Shown here: piece after piece, positions 11,140 to 26,605 of the stretch
Layout of the letters: every line of letters begins with the position of its first letter
How positions within the stretch are numbered: the first letter of the stretch is position 1
DNA from: Pseudomonas lini
Lineage (GTDB): Bacteria > Pseudomonadota > Gammaproteobacteria > Pseudomonadales > Pseudomonadaceae
Length of the DNA: 64,000 bases
Direction: 5' to 3'
NCBI RefSeq assembly: GCF_964063345.1
Contig: NZ_OZ061318.1
Span: 4,774,001 to 4,838,000 of the forward strand
The notes under the pieces: model-generated
What the model was told of the DNA's origin: nothing
The model's database searches: none
Seen by the model: only the letters and a program-made list of their open reading frames with translations
Position numbers and translations under genes: made by a program

Positions 11140-13251
11140 TTACCAATCCACCGAGTAGCTCATGCTCAGCGTGCGGCCTTCAGCATTGGCGTACGGGGCT
11201 CTGGCGTTGGCCTGGGTGAACAGGTTCTGGTACGTGTGATCAGTCAGGTTGTACACGCCGCCTTCAAGACGACCGACCGGCAGTTGCACGGAGCCGAGCA
11301 AGTCCACCAGCGTATAGCCTTCGATCTCGCGTCCGTTGTCGTCCTTGGCGGCGGCGTCGTAACTGGACAAATGCATGCCTTGCAAGCGCAGGGTGTAGTC
11401 GTCTTCGGTGTAGCCGACGAACAGTGTGGTCTTGGCCGGTGAGATGCGCGTAGCCGGCAGATCGATCCATTTGCCGTTCTGCTCGGTTTCGCCTTTGGCC
11501 CAGGCATAAGTGCCACCCACCGACCAGCGATCGGTCGCGCGGTAGGTCAGGCTGTTTTCGATACCGCGAACTCGCTCTTTCTGGTTGATCAGGCGCAATA
11601 CGCGATCATTGGCATCGTAGAACTGGGTCACGTCCGAGGTGTTTTCGTACACGGTGACGTCGGCCTGCCACTGGTCCCAGTTACCGCGCCAGCCCAGCTC
11701 GTAACTATCAACTTTGATGGCCTGGGCGTTGAGACTCTGAATGTCGAAAGTGCTGCTGACATCACGCATGAAGCGCTGGATATCAGGTAGCGAAAACCCC
11801 TGGCTGTAATTGGCGAAGACGTCCTGGTTTTCACTCAGGTGGTAGACCGCCCCCAGGTTGTACAGCGTGGCATCGTATTTGAGGGTGTCACCGGGCAGCG
11901 TTGCGCGTACGCCGGTCTGGACGATCTGACCATAAGCGATGCTGTCGGAGACGTCGCTTTCGATCCATTCACGGCGCACACCGCCACGCAAGGTCCAGTC
12001 ACCGATGTCCCAGGACATCTGCCCGAACAGCGATTTGGTGGTGGTTTCGATGTCCGGGCCCAGCTCGTAGGTGGTGCCGGTCTTGGTGTAATTCAGGCCA
12101 TTGAGCCTGTATTGATCACCTCGTTGGCGAGAGCGCTCATTATCATAGTCGGCGCCCCAGACCAGATTGCCCGTGGCACTCCCGATCGCCGGCAGCGGCG
12201 TGTCGATGGCCGCGCGCAGGCCGTAGACATCCTGAATACTGTTGTTGTCGGAAATCCCGGCCCGGCCTCGCGACAGGTCTGGAAAGAACAACGCATCGGC
12301 GCGGCGCCAGTAGCTTTCCAGTTGCAGGCCCTGACCGTAGAAGTCCTTGTCGGTGTAGTTGAGGTTGACCGCCTGGTTATGGGTGTAGGGCTGGTCGTCG
12401 AGTTTCAGCCCTTTGACCGCCACGGCTTCCTGCCGGTTTGTCGGGTCTTTTGTGTAGCCAGTATCCTGCTGATCCTTGTAGTCCTGCAGCGACAGGCTGA
12501 GTTTTTTGTCGGCATCCAGCTCGTAACCGAAACGACCTTGCAGGTCATAGGTTTCGGTGTCCATGTTGCTGCCTTGGGAAGTGTCTTGAGGGATGCGGTC
12601 GCCGTTGCCATCGAACTGATCGTTACGCTGGGTCAGGTCGGCGGAGACGTACCAGTCAAGGGCATCCTTGCGCCCCGTCGCACTCTGGAAGGCTTCGTAG
12701 GCGAAGCCTTTGCGGTTGAGGTTGTTGCCGCTGGTCAGGCCCAGTTTGCTGCTGTAGGCAATGTCCTGGCCCTGATTGCGCTTGGTGATGATGTTGATGA
12801 TGCCGCCTGAAGCACCGGCACCGTAGATGCTGCTGGCGCCGGAGATCACTTCGATGCGTTCGATGCTGGCCGGGGCGATGCTGTTGAGCTGGCGGAAGTT
12901 GTCGCGCGTGGCGTTCTGCGATACGCCATCGATCAACACCAGCATGTTGCGCCCGCGCAGGGTCTGACCGAAGTTGCTCATTCCGCCGCTGGACGGCGCA
13001 AGACCGGGGACCAATTGCCCGAGGATGTCGGAGACGCGGCGACCCGCGCCGCTCTGCTCACGGACCTGCTGTTCGTCGATCACCTGGACCGAGCCCGGAA
13101 TCGAAGCAATGCTCGCTTCGCTACGAGTCGCGGAGACGACGGTGGCTTGCATGTTCAAGGTGCCGGGCTGCTGCTCGGTATCCTCTGCCCAGGTCTGGGC
13201 GCTGAAGGTACCGAGCAGCGGGATCAGCAGGGAGAGCTTGGTTCGGATCAT
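11140..13251 (-). CDS. IutA-like TonB-dependent siderophore receptor
   Basis: A 703-residue outer-membrane receptor with signal peptide (MIRTKLSLLIPLLGTFSAQTWA). LNMQATVVSATRSE near 32-45 is the TonB-box region, the plug domain follows (IPGSVQVIDEQQVRE, LRGRNMLVLIDGV, IERIEVISGASSIYGAGA), then a 22-strand barrel ending in aromatic LSMSYSVDW. The plug resembles the aerobactin receptor IutA (QLIPGLD, MRGRPLVVLIDGVR, IEVISGATSLYGGG), which suggests a citrate-based siderophore. Its ATG overlaps the stop of the exporter gene as ATGA, so it is the last gene of the siderophore operon. Confidence 0.9.
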   Translation of the reverse strand: MIRTKLSLLIPLLGTFSAQTWAEDTEQQPGTLNMQATVVSATRSEASIASIPGSVQVIDEQQVREQSGAGRRVSDILGQLVPGLAPSSGGMSNFGQTLRGRNMLVLIDGVSQNATRDNFRQLNSIAPASIERIEVISGASSIYGAGASGGIINIITKRNQGQDIAYSSKLGLTSGNNLNRKGFAYEAFQSATGRKDALDWYVSADLTQRNDQFDGNGDRIPQDTSQGSNMDTETYDLQGRFGYELDADKKLSLSLQDYKDQQDTGYTKDPTNRQEAVAVKGLKLDDQPYTHNQAVNLNYTDKDFYGQGLQLESYWRRADALFFPDLSRGRAGISDNNSIQDVYGLRAAIDTPLPAIGSATGNLVWGADYDNERSRQRGDQYRLNGLNYTKTGTTYELGPDIETTTKSLFGQMSWDIGDWTLRGGVRREWIESDVSDSIAYGQIVQTGVRATLPGDTLKYDATLYNLGAVYHLSENQDVFANYSQGFSLPDIQRFMRDVSSTFDIQSLNAQAIKVDSYELGWRGNWDQWQADVTVYENTSDVTQFYDANDRVLRLINQKERVRGIENSLTYRATDRWSVGGTYAWAKGETEQNGKWIDLPATRISPAKTTLFVGYTEDDYTLRLQGMHLSSYDAAAKDDNGREIEGYTLVDLLGSVQLPVGRLEGGVYNLTDHTYQNLFTQANARAPYANAEGRTLSMSYSVDW

Positions 13252-14468
13252 GACGTGGTCTTTTTTAGTTGTGATAAGTGTGGGGCGATAAGGTCAGGCG
13301 CGGCGTTGAACGAGCGCACCCAGCGGATCCCGATGGCGGCGATGGCGTAGGTCAGCGCCACCAGCCAGAAACTGTGAGCCAGGCCAACCACGCCCATGCC
13401 TATCCCGCCAAGGACGACACCGAGCAGAGCGCCAGCCTTTGCCGCGCTGTTGCCCAGGCCGAGCGCGAACCCTTGCTGGGTGATGGAAATGGTGTTGGCG
13501 ATCAATGCATAGGCGACGGGCAGCAGGGCGCCTTGCCAGATGCCCCAGACGAGTCGACTGACGAGAAACCCCAGCCATTCGTTGGCCAATGCCGTGGCCG
13601 CCAGCGTCAGGGCACACAGCCAGGCCACGCCTTCAATGACGCGCAAGGTGTAGGCGGGCTGCCAGCGGTCGAACAGACGTCCCCACAGCGGTGCGGAAAT
13701 AGCCAGGGTCGCGGCGCTCGCCGCGTAGGTGGCGCCGATCAGCCAGCCTGGGGCATGCAGAATGTTCGCGACGTACAGGGCGTAGAACGACTGCGGCATC
13801 ATCTTCGCGGCCTGAATCAACACGATCACCAACAGGATTCCACCGAGCCAGCCTTTGGGCAGGGCAACCGGTTCAACCGCTTTTTTCTTCGAGGTCCGGG
13901 CCTTGTCGGCCGGCAGGAAAAAACTCCCCAGAGCACACAGCAGGCAAATCGCCGTTGCGCCATAGCAGAGCAGGGCAAATCCCGAGACGTCCATCAGCCA
14001 GCCACCCAACACCGGGCCGATCAATGAGCCGACGGCGGTTGCCGATTGCAGGCGGGCCAGGGTGTGACCCCGTCTGGAACTGTCGCAGCAGGCCAAGGCG
14101 TAGGCTTGCGCGGCAGCGAGAAAACCGGCCAATGCACCTTGCATCACGCGAATACCTACCAGCAGCCACGGGTCGAGGGTGATGGCCGCCAACCCTTGGC
14201 ACAGCGCGAGTGCCAGCAACGCCCGAACAATCATCGGTTTGTGTCCGGTGCGATCCCCCAGCCGGCCCCACATAGGGGTCAGGAGCATGGCCGCCAGCAT
14301 CGGACCGGCATAGACCAGCGCCGATAACAGCGCGGTGTAGCCTGCGCCCGCTGGCCCGAGCAGATGCTGGATCTGCAAGGGCCAGAACGGGCCGCTCATT
14401 TCCATTGCGCCCATGGAGACAAACTGGATGACGATCAGCAGTCGCAAGGCGCGACCGTCAGCGAGCAT
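13248..14468 (-). CDS. MFS transporter, probable siderophore exporter
   Basis: A 406-residue protein with twelve hydrophobic segments and the MFS loop motif GRLGDRTGHKPM near 68-79. It lies between the NIS synthetase gene (11-base overlap with its stop) and the receptor gene (4-base ATGA overlap), so translation of the three is coupled. MFS pumps in this position of NIS operons, such as lbtB of Legionella, export the finished siderophore across the inner membrane. That role is inferred from context, as the sequence alone cannot show substrate. Confidence 0.85.
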   Translation of the reverse strand: MLADGRALRLLIVIQFVSMGAMEMSGPFWPLQIQHLLGPAGAGYTALLSALVYAGPMLAAMLLTPMWGRLGDRTGHKPMIVRALLALALCQGLAAITLDPWLLVGIRVMQGALAGFLAAAQAYALACCDSSRRGHTLARLQSATAVGSLIGPVLGGWLMDVSGFALLCYGATAICLLCALGSFFLPADKARTSKKKAVEPVALPKGWLGGILLVIVLIQAAKMMPQSFYALYVANILHAPGWLIGATYAASAATLAISAPLWGRLFDRWQPAYTLRVIEGVAWLCALTLAATALANEWLGFLVSRLVWGIWQGALLPVAYALIANTISITQQGFALGLGNSAAKAGALLGVVLGGIGMGVVGLAHSFWLVALTYAIAAIGIRWVRSFNAAPDLIAPHLSQLKKTTS

Positions 14469-16380
14469 GGGTGTTGGGTCGCAGCGGGTTACTCAGGCGT
14501 CCGACGATGTCGGCATGGCTGTCGAGCAAGCGCATGCGCATGAATGATTTGGCAGGCCAATCCTGTTCCAGCAAGGCCTTGCGCTCGCTTTCCCAACGTG
14601 CCGGATCGACGCGCTCGCGCAAGGTCTCGAAGCACTGCGCAACGTGCGATGCCAATCGCTCCCAAAGGGTACTGTCCGGCACATTCCAGTGGCGGGCACA
14701 GAGCAAAGTCAGCTCACCGAGGTGGCACATGAAGGTGGTGTGCAGAAGCTTGTCGCGGACAAAGCCGGAGTCGTCATACAGGGTCATTTTCGGATCGTGC
14801 AACTGGATATCCAGGCCCTTGGCGTGCAGGGTTTTGCGATCGATACGAACATCGCCGAAATCGCGCAACAGCAGCCGATTCAATTGCCCGTCAGCGCCCA
14901 TCACCATGAAACTGTTTTGCTGATGCGCTTCGAACGCCACGCCATACATCAGGTAAATGCCCAGCAGACTCGGTACGGCAATCGACAGGTAATCATCGAA
15001 GAACGTCAACATGGCCTCGCTGTCGTCACTGCCCTGAGCCAGTTTTACCCAATCACGCAGTAGCGGTTGTTCGAATTCGTTGACGGCGAACAGGCTGCCG
15101 ACCGGCACCGCCAACTCGCCTTCTTGCAGTAGGGTAAGCGGGTTGTCGCGATACAGCACGGCAGCATGCCGGGAGCGCTCGTCATCGGCCGGCAGTGGGG
15201 CGTAGTGCACGCCGATGCGCTCTGGAACGATGTTCAGCAAACGCTGAATCTGCGGCTCCTGATCGAGAATATCCAATACCAGTTGGCTGATGCGCGGACC
15301 CATTCGGGCCGAGCGCGGCGACACGGTGCGCTGCACGCTGGTCAGGCGCAAAGCCACCGGCAGTTTGACCATCGGCGCCACGCGACTGGCCTGCGGTAGA
15401 ACCGTGCGGAACGACATGGTCGGGTGGCCGGTAAAAGCCACGATGTCAGTGACGATCAGCAGGTTGTCGGCGATCTCGTTGGCGAACGAATGTGGCAGTT
15501 CTTCATGGGCTTGCCATGGGTGCGACGGTAGCGGGAGGTAGTCCCTTGCATCCAGACCCAATTGCTGCAAATGGCGTTGCAATTGCTCGGCAGCCTGTGG
15601 GAAGTGACCTTGCCACCAGTCCCAGTAATCGGCGGTGCCAGCCAGCGCTTCGACGTGTGCGTACTGGCGGTGCAGAGCGCACAGGACAATCGGAAAACTC
15701 GCTTCGAATTCTGGCGAGAAAGCGATGACCTGAGCGGCGCTCAAACCCAGTTTGGTCTTGTAGTTGGGGTGCCACGGATGGCCGAGCGTGCCCCACTGTT
15801 CGAGCAATGACGTAGGGTTCTGGTGGCTAGGGTCGGCTTTGAGCCAAGCGAGCAGATTGTCGTCGTACTCGGTATCGATCTGCTCTCTCAGGCGCTCGGT
15901 CCATCCATGGTGAAACGCCAGGCACAGGGTGTCGTTGCTGAAGCTGTCATCCAGCTCCCGGGCCAGACGTTCCAGTACTTGCGGGGAGGCTGGCGGGTTG
16001 AGCTGAGTGCTGAGGTGTGCGAGCAGTTCGCTGGGCAACTGGATTTTGTGGGGCAGTCTGTCGGGGGTGTGCAAAACGATGCTGCCGCGTACCTCCCAGC
16101 TGTTCATTCTGCCGCCGGACAAGTGCTCGAAGCAAAGATGCGCGCCATCGCCAAGTGGCAGCCAGCAGCGGCTGGAGTCGTCGTATTCGCAGGCGTCGGG
16201 GTTGATCAGATCTTCACGAAACAGCGCCTGGATCAGGCGTTGGAAACAGCGTTGGGCGGCGGGCTCCAGTGCATTGCTCAAATGATCGAGTGTGATGCGG
16301 TGGGACTGGAAAGCCTGAGTGCCAAGCGCTTCGCTCCAGTGAGCGAGCAATTGTTGCTGTTTTTGCGTGTGACCGCGCAT
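14458..16380 (-). CDS. NIS siderophore synthetase (IucA/IucC family)
   Basis: A 640-residue cytoplasmic enzyme that joins a carboxylate such as citrate to an amine or alcohol using ATP. Family motifs in order: LPLPSHPWQ near 275 (ATP), GHPTMSFRTVLP near 315-326, KLPVALRLTSVQR near 337-349 (ATP phosphates), FEAHQQNSFM near 490-499 (carboxylate), LLLRDFGDVRI near 508-518, and a C-terminal FhuF-like domain. It is the only NIS enzyme here; no hydroxylase, acetylase or decarboxylase accompanies it. AAGGAG lies upstream of ATG 16380. It is first in an operon with the exporter and receptor genes. Confidence 0.92.
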   Translation of the reverse strand: MRGHTQKQQQLLAHWSEALGTQAFQSHRITLDHLSNALEPAAQRCFQRLIQALFREDLINPDACEYDDSSRCWLPLGDGAHLCFEHLSGGRMNSWEVRGSIVLHTPDRLPHKIQLPSELLAHLSTQLNPPASPQVLERLARELDDSFSNDTLCLAFHHGWTERLREQIDTEYDDNLLAWLKADPSHQNPTSLLEQWGTLGHPWHPNYKTKLGLSAAQVIAFSPEFEASFPIVLCALHRQYAHVEALAGTADYWDWWQGHFPQAAEQLQRHLQQLGLDARDYLPLPSHPWQAHEELPHSFANEIADNLLIVTDIVAFTGHPTMSFRTVLPQASRVAPMVKLPVALRLTSVQRTVSPRSARMGPRISQLVLDILDQEPQIQRLLNIVPERIGVHYAPLPADDERSRHAAVLYRDNPLTLLQEGELAVPVGSLFAVNEFEQPLLRDWVKLAQGSDDSEAMLTFFDDYLSIAVPSLLGIYLMYGVAFEAHQQNSFMVMGADGQLNRLLLRDFGDVRIDRKTLHAKGLDIQLHDPKMTLYDDSGFVRDKLLHTTFMCHLGELTLLCARHWNVPDSTLWERLASHVAQCFETLRERVDPARWESERKALLEQDWPAKSFMRMRLLDSHADIVGRLSNPLRPNTHAR

Positions 16381-16442
16381 CAGGTCCGACTCCTTCTGGA
16401 CAGTTGATTAACTGAAAGCGCGCAAAGAATACCTCCTTGAAA

Positions 16443-16472
16443 AAATAATGCAAATGATAGTGGTTCAGATTT
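16443..16472 (-). promoter_or_regulatory. Fur-box-like operator upstream of the NIS operon
   Basis: AAATGATAGTGGTTCAGATT at 16452-16471 matches the Pseudomonas-type Fur site GATAATGATTCTCATT at 12 of 16 positions and has matching AAAT/ATTT ends; AATAATGCAAATGATAG overlaps it. It is about 70-90 bases before the NIS synthetase start, the only gene reading away from this gap. Fur with iron would be expected to repress here. Confidence 0.65.
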
Positions 16473-16491: not shown

Positions 16492-17421
16492 TCAGATGCT
16501 GGCCTGTGGTTTGCTCAAGACGATGTACTGCTCGCCCACTTTTTGCGCATAGCGCTCCACGACGTGCTGACACAACGCCACGATTTCTTCGACCCATTCC
16601 ACGCCAACCCGCCACGACACCACCACCTGCAAGTTCGGAGGTCGCTGATCGATGGCCAGCAAGGTCAATTCCCCCCGTGCCAATTCTTCGGCTACCAGCA
16701 CTGGCGGCAACGCGCCAATGCCAAATCCGTCCCGTAACAATCGGGTAATCGCCGACACTGAATTCACACAGTTCAATCGTGGCGCCATAACCCCATTGGC
16801 CTGCATCAGGCTCAAGATGTCCTGATGAGGATGGGAGTTTTTCGAATAGGTAATGATCCGCTCCCGCGCCAGGTCGGCGACACCTGAATACTCGCGGTTG
16901 TAGATGGAATTGCTGGCGACGATCCAGCCCATCGGATGACTGGCCAGCTCCAGGCTCCGTACGCTTTCCTGGCGTAGCAGGTCGGTTTGCAGGATCAGAT
17001 CGAGAAAGCCTTTTTGCAGCTGATCGCAGAGGTTGAGTGCGGTATCGGCCACCAGCTCGATTTCCACCAGCGGGTAATGATCCATCATCTGCGCCACCAA
17101 CGGGCTGAGCCAGGTGTGGATCACGGTGTCCATCACGCCGATCCGGATTCGTCCGACCTTACTCGAACGTGTCTCGATCGACTGCTTGAGCGCCTGCATC
17201 GTGTCCATCATCTGCTCGGCGTATTCGAGCACTTTCAGGCCTTCAGGCGTCAGGCTCACGCCGCGAGAATCGCGCAAGAACAGCTTCACCCCGAGCTCGC
17301 CTTCGAGCACGGCGATACGGCTGGAAATCGACGCCTGGGTGGTGAAGAGCTTGTCTGCCGTCAGGCGGAAACTCTTGAGTCGAGCGACCCAGACAAAGGT
17401 CTCGAGAAACTTCAGGTTCAT
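16492..17421 (-). CDS. LysR family transcriptional regulator, next to 5-oxoproline genes
   Basis: A 309-residue LysR regulator: N-terminal winged helix (FVWVARLKSFRLTADKLFTTQASISSRIAVLEGELGVKLFLRD, residues 9-51 with the recognition helix around 29-38) and a substrate-binding domain from about 90 that is periplasmic-binding-protein-like. It starts 147 bases from the divergent MFS transporter gene, and that gap carries a TTGGACGC/GCGTCCAA inverted repeat with an 11-base spacer, a normal LysR site. It most likely controls the MFS-pxpABC genes. Its stop is 111 bases from the siderophore gene, which has its own promoter. Confidence 0.9.
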   Translation of the reverse strand: MNLKFLETFVWVARLKSFRLTADKLFTTQASISSRIAVLEGELGVKLFLRDSRGVSLTPEGLKVLEYAEQMMDTMQALKQSIETRSSKVGRIRIGVMDTVIHTWLSPLVAQMMDHYPLVEIELVADTALNLCDQLQKGFLDLILQTDLLRQESVRSLELASHPMGWIVASNSIYNREYSGVADLARERIITYSKNSHPHQDILSLMQANGVMAPRLNCVNSVSAITRLLRDGFGIGALPPVLVAEELARGELTLLAIDQRPPNLQVVVSWRVGVEWVEEIVALCQHVVERYAQKVGEQYIVLSKPQASI

Positions 17422-25583: not shown

Positions 25584-26558
25584 ATGAGCCGTATTTATGC
25601 TGACAACGCCCATTCCATTGGCAATACGCCGCTGGTGCAGATCAACCGTATTGCCCCGCGCGGTGTCACCATCCTGGCCAAGATCGAAGGGCGCAACCCC
25701 GGTTATTCGGTCAAGTGCCGGATTGGCGCGAACATGATCTGGGAGGCTGAAAGCAGCGGTAAACTCAAGCCTGGCATGACCATCATCGAACCGACTTCGG
25801 GCAACACCGGCATCGGCCTGGCGTTCGTTGCCGCCGCCCGCGGTTACCGGCTGGTGCTGACCATGCCGGCGTCCATGAGCATCGAACGACGCAAGGTGCT
25901 CAAGGCCCTTGGCGCCGAACTGGTGCTGACGGAACCGGCCAAAGGCATGAAAGGCGCGATCGAGAAGGCCGCCGAAATCCTCGCCAGCGACCCGTCCACT
26001 TACTTCATGCCGGCGCAATTTGAAAACCCGGCCAACCCGGCCATCCACGAAAAAACCACCGGCCCGGAAATATGGAACGACACCGACGGCGCAGTCGACG
26101 TATTGGTGGCAGGCGTCGGGACAGGTGGAACCATTACCGGGGTTTCGCGGTATATCAAGAATACCCAGGGCAAGCCGATAATCTCGGTGGCGGTGGAGCC
26201 GCTGGTGTCTCCAGTGATTACCCAGACAATCGCCGGGGAAGAGATCAAACCGAGCCCTCATAAAATCCAGGGCATTGGCGCCGGTTTTGTGCCGAAGAAC
26301 CTGGACTTGTCGATGGTTGACCGGGTCGAACTGGTCAGCGACGACGAATCCAAGGCGATGGCCCTGCGCCTGATGCAGGAAGAAGGGATTTTGAGTGGTA
26401 TCTCGTGCGGCGCCGCCATGGCGGTGGCTGTGCGGCTGGCCGAAACCCCAGAGATGCAGGGCAAGACCATCGTGGTGATCCTGCCCGACTCTGGCGAACG
26501 CTACTTGTCGAGCATGCTGTTTAGTGACCTGTTCACCGAACAGGAAAATCAGCAGTAA
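25584..26558 (+). CDS. cysK: Cysteine synthase A (O-acetylserine sulfhydrylase)
   Basis: A 324-residue PLP enzyme that makes cysteine from O-acetylserine and sulfide. The PLP lysine is in [19 protein letters not shown] near 35-53, the substrate loop is [20 protein letters not shown] near 69-88, [10 protein letters not shown] near 174-183 binds the PLP phosphate and [12 protein letters not shown] near 299-310 closes the site. The SVKCR form and overall match point to the CysK type rather than CysM. The 3' side was a REPIN that is now split by an insertion sequence. Confidence 0.93.
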
Positions 26559-26605
26559 CATTTTACGACTGCTTTGCAGCCGAACGAGGGCAAGCCCCAA
26601 AGTCC

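Follow-up and report, generated by a model that had tools for sequence, protein, structure and literature searches.

A probable trbABC (triabactin) operon in Pseudomonas lini and its kinship with the rhizoferrin synthetase family

The subject of this analysis is a three-gene siderophore operon located within a 64-kb stretch of the Pseudomonas lini genome (NZ_OZ061318.1, positions 4,774,001 to 4,838,000 of the forward strand; hereinafter the window, to whose numbering coordinates refer unless another locus is named). According to the list of open reading frames (ORFs) of the window, the minus strand carries, in one overlapping run, genes for a nonribosomal peptide synthetase-independent siderophore (NIS) synthetase, a major facilitator superfamily (MFS) exporter and a TonB-dependent receptor. 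The overlaps are 11 bases between the NIS and MFS genes and 4 bases between the MFS and receptor genes. The genes and their Pfam matches are as follows:

14458..16380, minus strand: NIS (IucA/IucC) synthetase, 640 aa; IucA_IucC, 192.9 bits, 8.3e-57; FhuF, 97 bits, 2.1e-27

13248..14468, minus strand: MFS exporter, 406 aa; MFS_1, 162.6 bits, 1.6e-47

11140..13251, minus strand: TonB-dependent siderophore receptor, 703 aa; TonB barrel, 7e-38; Plug, 2.9e-19

The ORFs and the Pfam domains bear out the gene content and layout that a first-pass annotation, made from the letters alone, had proposed for this region; the operon is real, although the upper bound assigned to it, 16472, falls upstream of the synthetase gene, the start codon of which is at 16380. 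Against the NCBIfam models, the synthetase scores highest with FslA, the rhizoferrin synthetase (361.6 bits against a cut-off of 1000), the exporter with FslB, the rhizoferrin exporter (184.4 bits against 600), and the receptor with RhtA (352.4 bits against 1100). All three scores are below the respective cut-offs and hence indicate kinship only, without conferring these names; the Legionella-type NIS synthetase of locus L096 is under the FslA cut-off as well (341.9 bits against 1000). By the same token, the earlier label 'IutA-like' can be kept for the receptor as a statement of family-level kinship, its top model being RhtA. Among solved structures, the receptor matched PhuR alone, over its first 265 residues, which is uninformative with respect to the ligand. 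The synthetase retains H287, S323, R325, T326, K339, R351, H486, Q488, N489 and D507, all of which are at positions where no more than one of 19 compared NIS synthetases, of several types, has a different residue.

The genome of this strain is complete (a single contig of 6,575,559 bases, 100% complete) and a search with the PF04183 profile detected exactly one match, so that the absence of a second NIS synthetase, initially claimed for the locus, extends to the entire 6.58 Mb. The companion claim, that hydroxylase, acetylase and decarboxylase genes are missing, holds for the three-gene stretch, inside which none was found, but not genome-wide: elsewhere, four PF02784 decarboxylases are encoded, along with two lysine/ornithine hydroxylase matches, of which one is strong (L085, 368 bits) and the other marginal (21.6 bits against a cut-off of 21.3). 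At 4.19 Mb of the same genome, positions 1150-2406 of locus L082 encode a 418-aa PF02784 decarboxylase that falls short of the LysA cut-off and has no SpeA match.

An operon of this composition is already on record, contrary to the initial impression that it was undescribed for this group. According to the accessible parts of PMC10080011 (Grosse et al. 2023), trbABC was found with transposon and deletion mutants of Pseudomonas sp. NCIMB 10586, the transposon screen having been performed in a parent negative for pyoverdine and mupirochelin, and the product was named triabactin. The same parts report that the remaining chrome azurol S (CAS) activity disappeared upon trb deletion, revealing, in addition to those two siderophores, a CAS-active one that depends on the operon; that triabactin allows growth in 2,2'-bipyridine; that iron represses trbA; and that a hypothetical Fur site lies upstream of trbABC. 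Purification and structure were deferred there to further work, the molecule being presumed to be a primary metabolite, for example citrate, in modified form, and the word 'rhizoferrin' does not occur in the main text. In the accessible portion of PMC13037486 (2026), P. rhodesiae LMG 17764T is listed as a triabactin producer in which deletion of about 5 kb of trbABC abolished production. The one open literature library searched yielded neither a published triabactin structure nor a publication joining Pseudomonas, triabactin and rhizoferrin, and no report of rhizoferrin from a Pseudomonas was found in the open literature as far as its texts were accessible (including PMC7857480, PMC10609062, PMC7676072 and PMC12815270).

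The genome of P. rhodesiae DSM 14020, which we take to be the same type strain as LMG 17764T, contains a single PF04183 gene, in a locus (L071) with the same gene order as the window; compared with P. lini, the synthetases are 67% identical, the exporters 77% and the receptors 81%. In a 38-row NIS tree, the window synthetase and that of P. rhodesiae belong to one clade of 14 rows with 100/100 support, which is joined next, with 96/94 support, by the three beta-proteobacterial rows (Duganella, Telluria and Noviherbaspirillum). By sequence comparison, we infer that the window genes are orthologous to trbABC: 14458..16380 probably encodes TrbA, 13248..14468 TrbB and 11140..13251 TrbC. In our assessment, this locus is very likely the P. 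lini version of trbABC, the triabactin operon, responsible for the production, export and re-import of a citrate-based siderophore.

The arrangement is well conserved. Among 79 related loci (the best of 201 confirmed stretches obtained with the synthetase profile from other genome records), 71 contain all three ORFs in the same order. Of the eight exceptions, five are synthetase genes that stand alone; the exporter is missing from one of the others, an intact synthetase ORF from another (L078) and the receptor from the last, a Duganella locus. With translated matches, the three genes are found in order in 72 of the 79 loci, L078 included, the spacings between them being -61 to -7 and -10 to 11 bases. 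This conserved order of abutting or overlapping genes indicates that the arrangement is not due to chance. In all 41 distant loci (synthetase less than 75% identical to that of the window), both the exporter and the receptor are closer to their window counterparts than the synthetase is, and the identity matrices of the three genes correlate strongly (r of 0.975, 0.932 and 0.923 for 48 rows; the highest value in 500 permutations was 0.36). Among individual loci, L073 has the receptor 36 bases after the synthetase with no exporter gene between them, and in L058 (8895-12233) a single open frame spans the exporter and the receptor, which could be an assembly error or a real fusion. Apparent exporter-receptor fusions in four genomes (G006, G138, G141 and G070) were rejected, the long frames matching the receptor only.

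In the mechanism that we propose, TrbA would, under iron shortage, activate citrate with ATP and couple it to an amine drawn from ordinary metabolism, giving a small hydroxycarboxylate siderophore, with this one enzyme presumably making both bonds to citrate. TrbB would export the siderophore and TrbC would bring its ferric form back across the outer membrane. With putrescine (or cadaverine) as the amine, triabactin would be identical with rhizoferrin or closely similar to it. Precedent comes from PMC7857480, in the accessible parts of which a single NIS synthetase of R. pickettii converts putrescine and citrate to rhizoferrin in vitro, yields rhizoferrin in E. coli, and also takes cadaverine and, less well, 1,3-diaminopropane; by a similar line of thought, legiobactin has been guessed for a lone NIS synthetase in Pedobacter (PMC10609062, accessible parts). 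TrbA is 34% identical to Francisella FslA over 519 aa and 30% identical to the 599-aa NIS synthetase of Legionella pneumophila over 520 aa. By eye, the motif RTVSP is common to TrbA, FslA and the Legionella enzyme, and two enzymes of the diaminopropionate type discussed below read RTLQ or RSLQ. The P. lini genome encodes SpeA, agmatine deiminase and an OKR-type decarboxylase, so that a diamine supply is likely; furthermore, the three trb genes abut or overlap and thus leave no room between them for an amine-making gene. For this chemical step taken alone, namely, triabactin as rhizoferrin or a near analogue with putrescine or cadaverine as the amine, we consider the chances to be roughly even.

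The possession of a lone NIS synthetase, from which a rhizoferrin-type product had been proposed at first, does not in itself fix the amine because equally distant lone NIS synthetases are encoded next to genes of a diaminopropionate type. We examined eight loci of this second type (L130 from G029, L131 from G049, L132 from G047, L138 from G006, L135 from G403, L136 from G516, L098 and L099), of which L130, L131, L132 and L138 are from Pseudomonas, L098 from a Sinorhizobium meliloti plasmid and L099 from a Bradyrhizobium plasmid. All eight contain genes for a PF02784 decarboxylase, an SbnA-like protein and an octopine-dehydrogenase-like protein; the SbnA-like enzyme of L138 scores 229 bits with TIGR03945 (cut-off 350). 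From this gene content, the cluster looks like one for a diaminopropionate-based single-NIS siderophore. TrbA is 32-34% identical to the three synthetases of this type that were compared and 30% identical to L091. NIS genes in the score range of this second type are present in 17 of the 298 Pseudomonas genomes sampled (P. lini included), two of which, G006 and G233, also have a gene in the TrbA range.

The most serious alternative is accordingly that the operon is the same but the amine is not that of rhizoferrin, TrbA joining citrate to some other primary metabolite and triabactin being a new carboxylate siderophore. TrbA is, after all, only 34% identical to FslA, its equally distant relatives sit among SbnA-like, octopine-dehydrogenase-like and decarboxylase genes that probably signify a different amine, and the triabactin structure was left to further work in the accessible text of PMC10080011. 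Against this stand FslA as the best curated match for TrbA and the genomic context: of the proteins encoded in the other cluster type, neither the decarboxylase nor the octopine-dehydrogenase-like one is matched in any of the 79 trb-type loci, and the 64-kb window lacks SbnB-like and decarboxylase matches. SbnA-like matches do occur, one of 33% at 25617-26600, about 9 kb from the operon and outside the cluster, and others of 32-34% in four of the 79 loci; we read all of these as probable ordinary cysteine-synthase kin. On balance, this alternative, with an amine that may come from elsewhere in metabolism, appears possible, about one chance in three in our judgment. A role in uptake or export, with a synthetase that is no longer active, is improbable: five related genomes, described below, have indeed lost the synthetase at this locus and kept the receptor, but the window has an open reading frame for each of the three genes, and its synthetase retains the conserved core residues. 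Least plausible of all is an aerobactin- or hydroxamate-type product to which hydroxylase or acetylase genes at other loci of this genome would contribute, a possibility that the strong L085 match might suggest, given that such a hydroxylase would be expected for pyoverdine, that this genome has one NIS gene and the aerobactin and rhizobactin pathways have two, and that the two NIS synthetases of S. meliloti pSymA (two NIS frames in the unannotated record L100, presumably the rhizobactin genes) are just 23-28% identical to TrbA.

Several observations weigh against the identification of the operon with trbABC and of its product with a rhizoferrin-type compound. The orthology link runs through P. 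rhodesiae and not through NCIMB 10586 itself, and no publication was found that gives both the DSM 14020 and the LMG 17764T numbers. Kinship of the species alone raises the correlations between identity matrices. The FslA and FslB cut-offs are missed. In the 38-row tree, the TrbA, FslA/Legionella and diaminopropionate-type enzymes form separate deep branches, so that no branch unites TrbA with FslA/Legionella while leaving out the diaminopropionate-type clade; the R. pickettii enzyme, the best-tested reference, is outside the row set. Finally, the candidate Fur site described below is weak when compared with stretches of like base content. The phylogeny that the first-pass annotation had suggested as a check groups the window synthetase with that of P. 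rhodesiae and gives the FslA/Legionella and diaminopropionate-type enzymes separate deep branches. Taken together, its observation was real and its claim of novelty wrong, while its chemical guess is a sensible, partly supported proposal for the structure of triabactin: a citrate siderophore is likely and FslA is the nearest curated family, rhizoferrin itself being unproven. Triabactin, for which we found descriptions by genes and phenotype only, is thereby tied to the rhizoferrin-synthetase family, and its structure becomes a question for liquid chromatography-mass spectrometry.

In the Pseudomonas sample, FslA-family matches at E<=1e-60 were detected in 53 of the 298 genomes, at 55 places. 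Thirty-eight of these, one per genome, score 322-370 bits, which is the range of the examined TrbA-type genes, and the remaining 17 score 268-286 bits. With the Trb profile, six of the lower-range genes score 475-500 bits compared to 1028-1156 bits for seven Trb-type genes, and the four of the six that were placed in the tree branch outside the TrbA clade. Stand-alone relatives of TrbA, such as that in G108, also score in the TrbA range, so the 38 places cannot all be taken for complete operons. Beyond Pseudomonas, such genes are rare: five of 398 genomes in a phylum sample match at 1e-60, three of them Pseudomonas, and seven of 369 in a class sample match at 1e-40, P. lini included.

The receptor is matched at E<=1e-200 in 45 of the 298 Pseudomonas genomes, P. 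lini among them. All 38 genomes with a TrbA-range synthetase have it, and seven others (G059, G068, G114, G208, G237, G271 and G277) have it without such a synthetase; in G108, the TrbA-range gene is far from the receptor. Comparison of the receptor regions of these eight genomes (17-18 kb each) revealed that in G237, G277 and G108 the receptor lies between the genes that flank the locus in the window, with DNA missing: approximately 13314-16147 in G237 (most of the synthetase and exporter), 13659-16229 and a further 0.2-kb piece in G277, and 14477-16355 in G108 (the synthetase alone), all in window coordinates. G059 and G068 have other neighbors and retain synthetase remnants before the receptor (residues 4-77 and 17-121, respectively), G068 along with an exporter remnant. 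The receptor frames in these genomes contain no stop. Thus, in five of the 45 receptor-bearing Pseudomonas genomes, the synthetase has been lost beside an intact receptor and, the break points being different, the simplest interpretation is that of separate losses. The candidate Fur site is within the aligned upstream part in G237 and G277. In the 17-18 kb regions of G114, G208 and G271, there is no synthetase or exporter match at 1e-10, and the receptors are 67-68% identical to that of the window. This level of identity defines a receptor subfamily, represented by L159, L160, L161 and G233:C7; the L159, L160 and L161 regions have no synthetase or exporter match.

Loss of siderophore synthesis with retention of uptake is a known pattern. 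For triabactin, we found no report of it in the accessible parts of the literature covered. This type of operon being already known in Pseudomonas, the synthetase losses beside an intact receptor are what is new here. Repeated loss with a kept receptor, in a genus where 38 of 298 genomes have a TrbA-range synthetase, provides a natural case for studying siderophore sharing.

Stand-alone TrbA relatives without the trb exporter or receptor, 64-70% identical to the window synthetase, were observed at L040, L044, L047, L051, L076 and L156 (G108). Four of the five genomes of L040, L044, L047, L051 and L076 have a full operon as well, and nothing in the L044 genome matches the receptor at E<=1e-80. 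L051 adjoins what appear, by eye, to be a gluconate permease and a LacI-type regulator, and G108 combines a stand-alone copy with an operon that lost its own synthetase. A bolder scheme, in which TrbA makes a citrate siderophore other than rhizoferrin with an acceptor amine new to NIS products, a second, stand-alone TrbA copy diversifies this product in some genomes, and the genus has repeatedly come to comprise strains that make this one molecule and others that have only its receptor, seems to us doubtful, at perhaps one chance in four.

Two further features lie upstream of the synthetase gene:

16450..16468, no strand assigned: candidate Fur site

16492..17421, minus strand: LysR-type regulator gene

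Counts of matches to the plain 19-mer Fur consensus are at chance level (11 at best, a value of at least 11 being reached by 331 of 3000 random 120-base stretches), and for this reason a matrix was tried, built from 35 sites from 45 of 46 related loci with at most 82% synthetase identity, the sites having been chosen by likeness to a Fur consensus. By this matrix, the candidate is the third-best 19-mer among the 63,982 positions of the window; its score is reached by 16 of 3194 stretches of 120 bases, yet by 5 of 31 stretches of like G+C content. The site at 16450..16468 is therefore suggestive only; iron control in P. lini would be expected by analogy with its relatives. Of the 30 near loci, in which synthetase identity is 75% or more, 25 have the LysR gene next to the operon, compared to none of the 41 distant loci with all three genes retained; the amidotransferase neighbor is likewise absent from those 41. 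The LysR gene was accordingly rejected as the operon regulator and is probably a neighbor outside the system.

Among known systems, the trbABC operons of NCIMB 10586 and P. rhodesiae LMG 17764T are the closest, being like the window locus in the number, order and predicted functions of the genes and unlike it in species group and chromosomal neighborhood. In rhizoferrin systems, as described in the accessible parts of PMC7857480 (the NIS and MFS pair of R. pickettii, LbtA/LbtB of Legionella and FslA/FigA of Francisella), the NIS gene adjoins an MFS gene as it does in trb, which differs in having a TonB-dependent receptor as the third gene; Francisella additionally has FslC/FigC, whereas the trb operon is without a FigC-type decarboxylase. 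The second type of lone-NIS cluster shares with trb, as far as examined, one NIS and one MFS gene and in all eight loci carries the three extra genes, of which the trb operon has none. Aerobactin, rhizobactin 1021 and achromobactin have the IucA/IucC superfamily in common with trb, and their pathways include further enzymes besides two or three NIS genes. TrbA is 23-28% identical to three reference synthetases of this kind, which we assign to these pathways in part from the presence of three NIS genes per genome; a system of the aerobactin or achromobactin type would have two or more NIS synthetases, and the P. lini genome has one.

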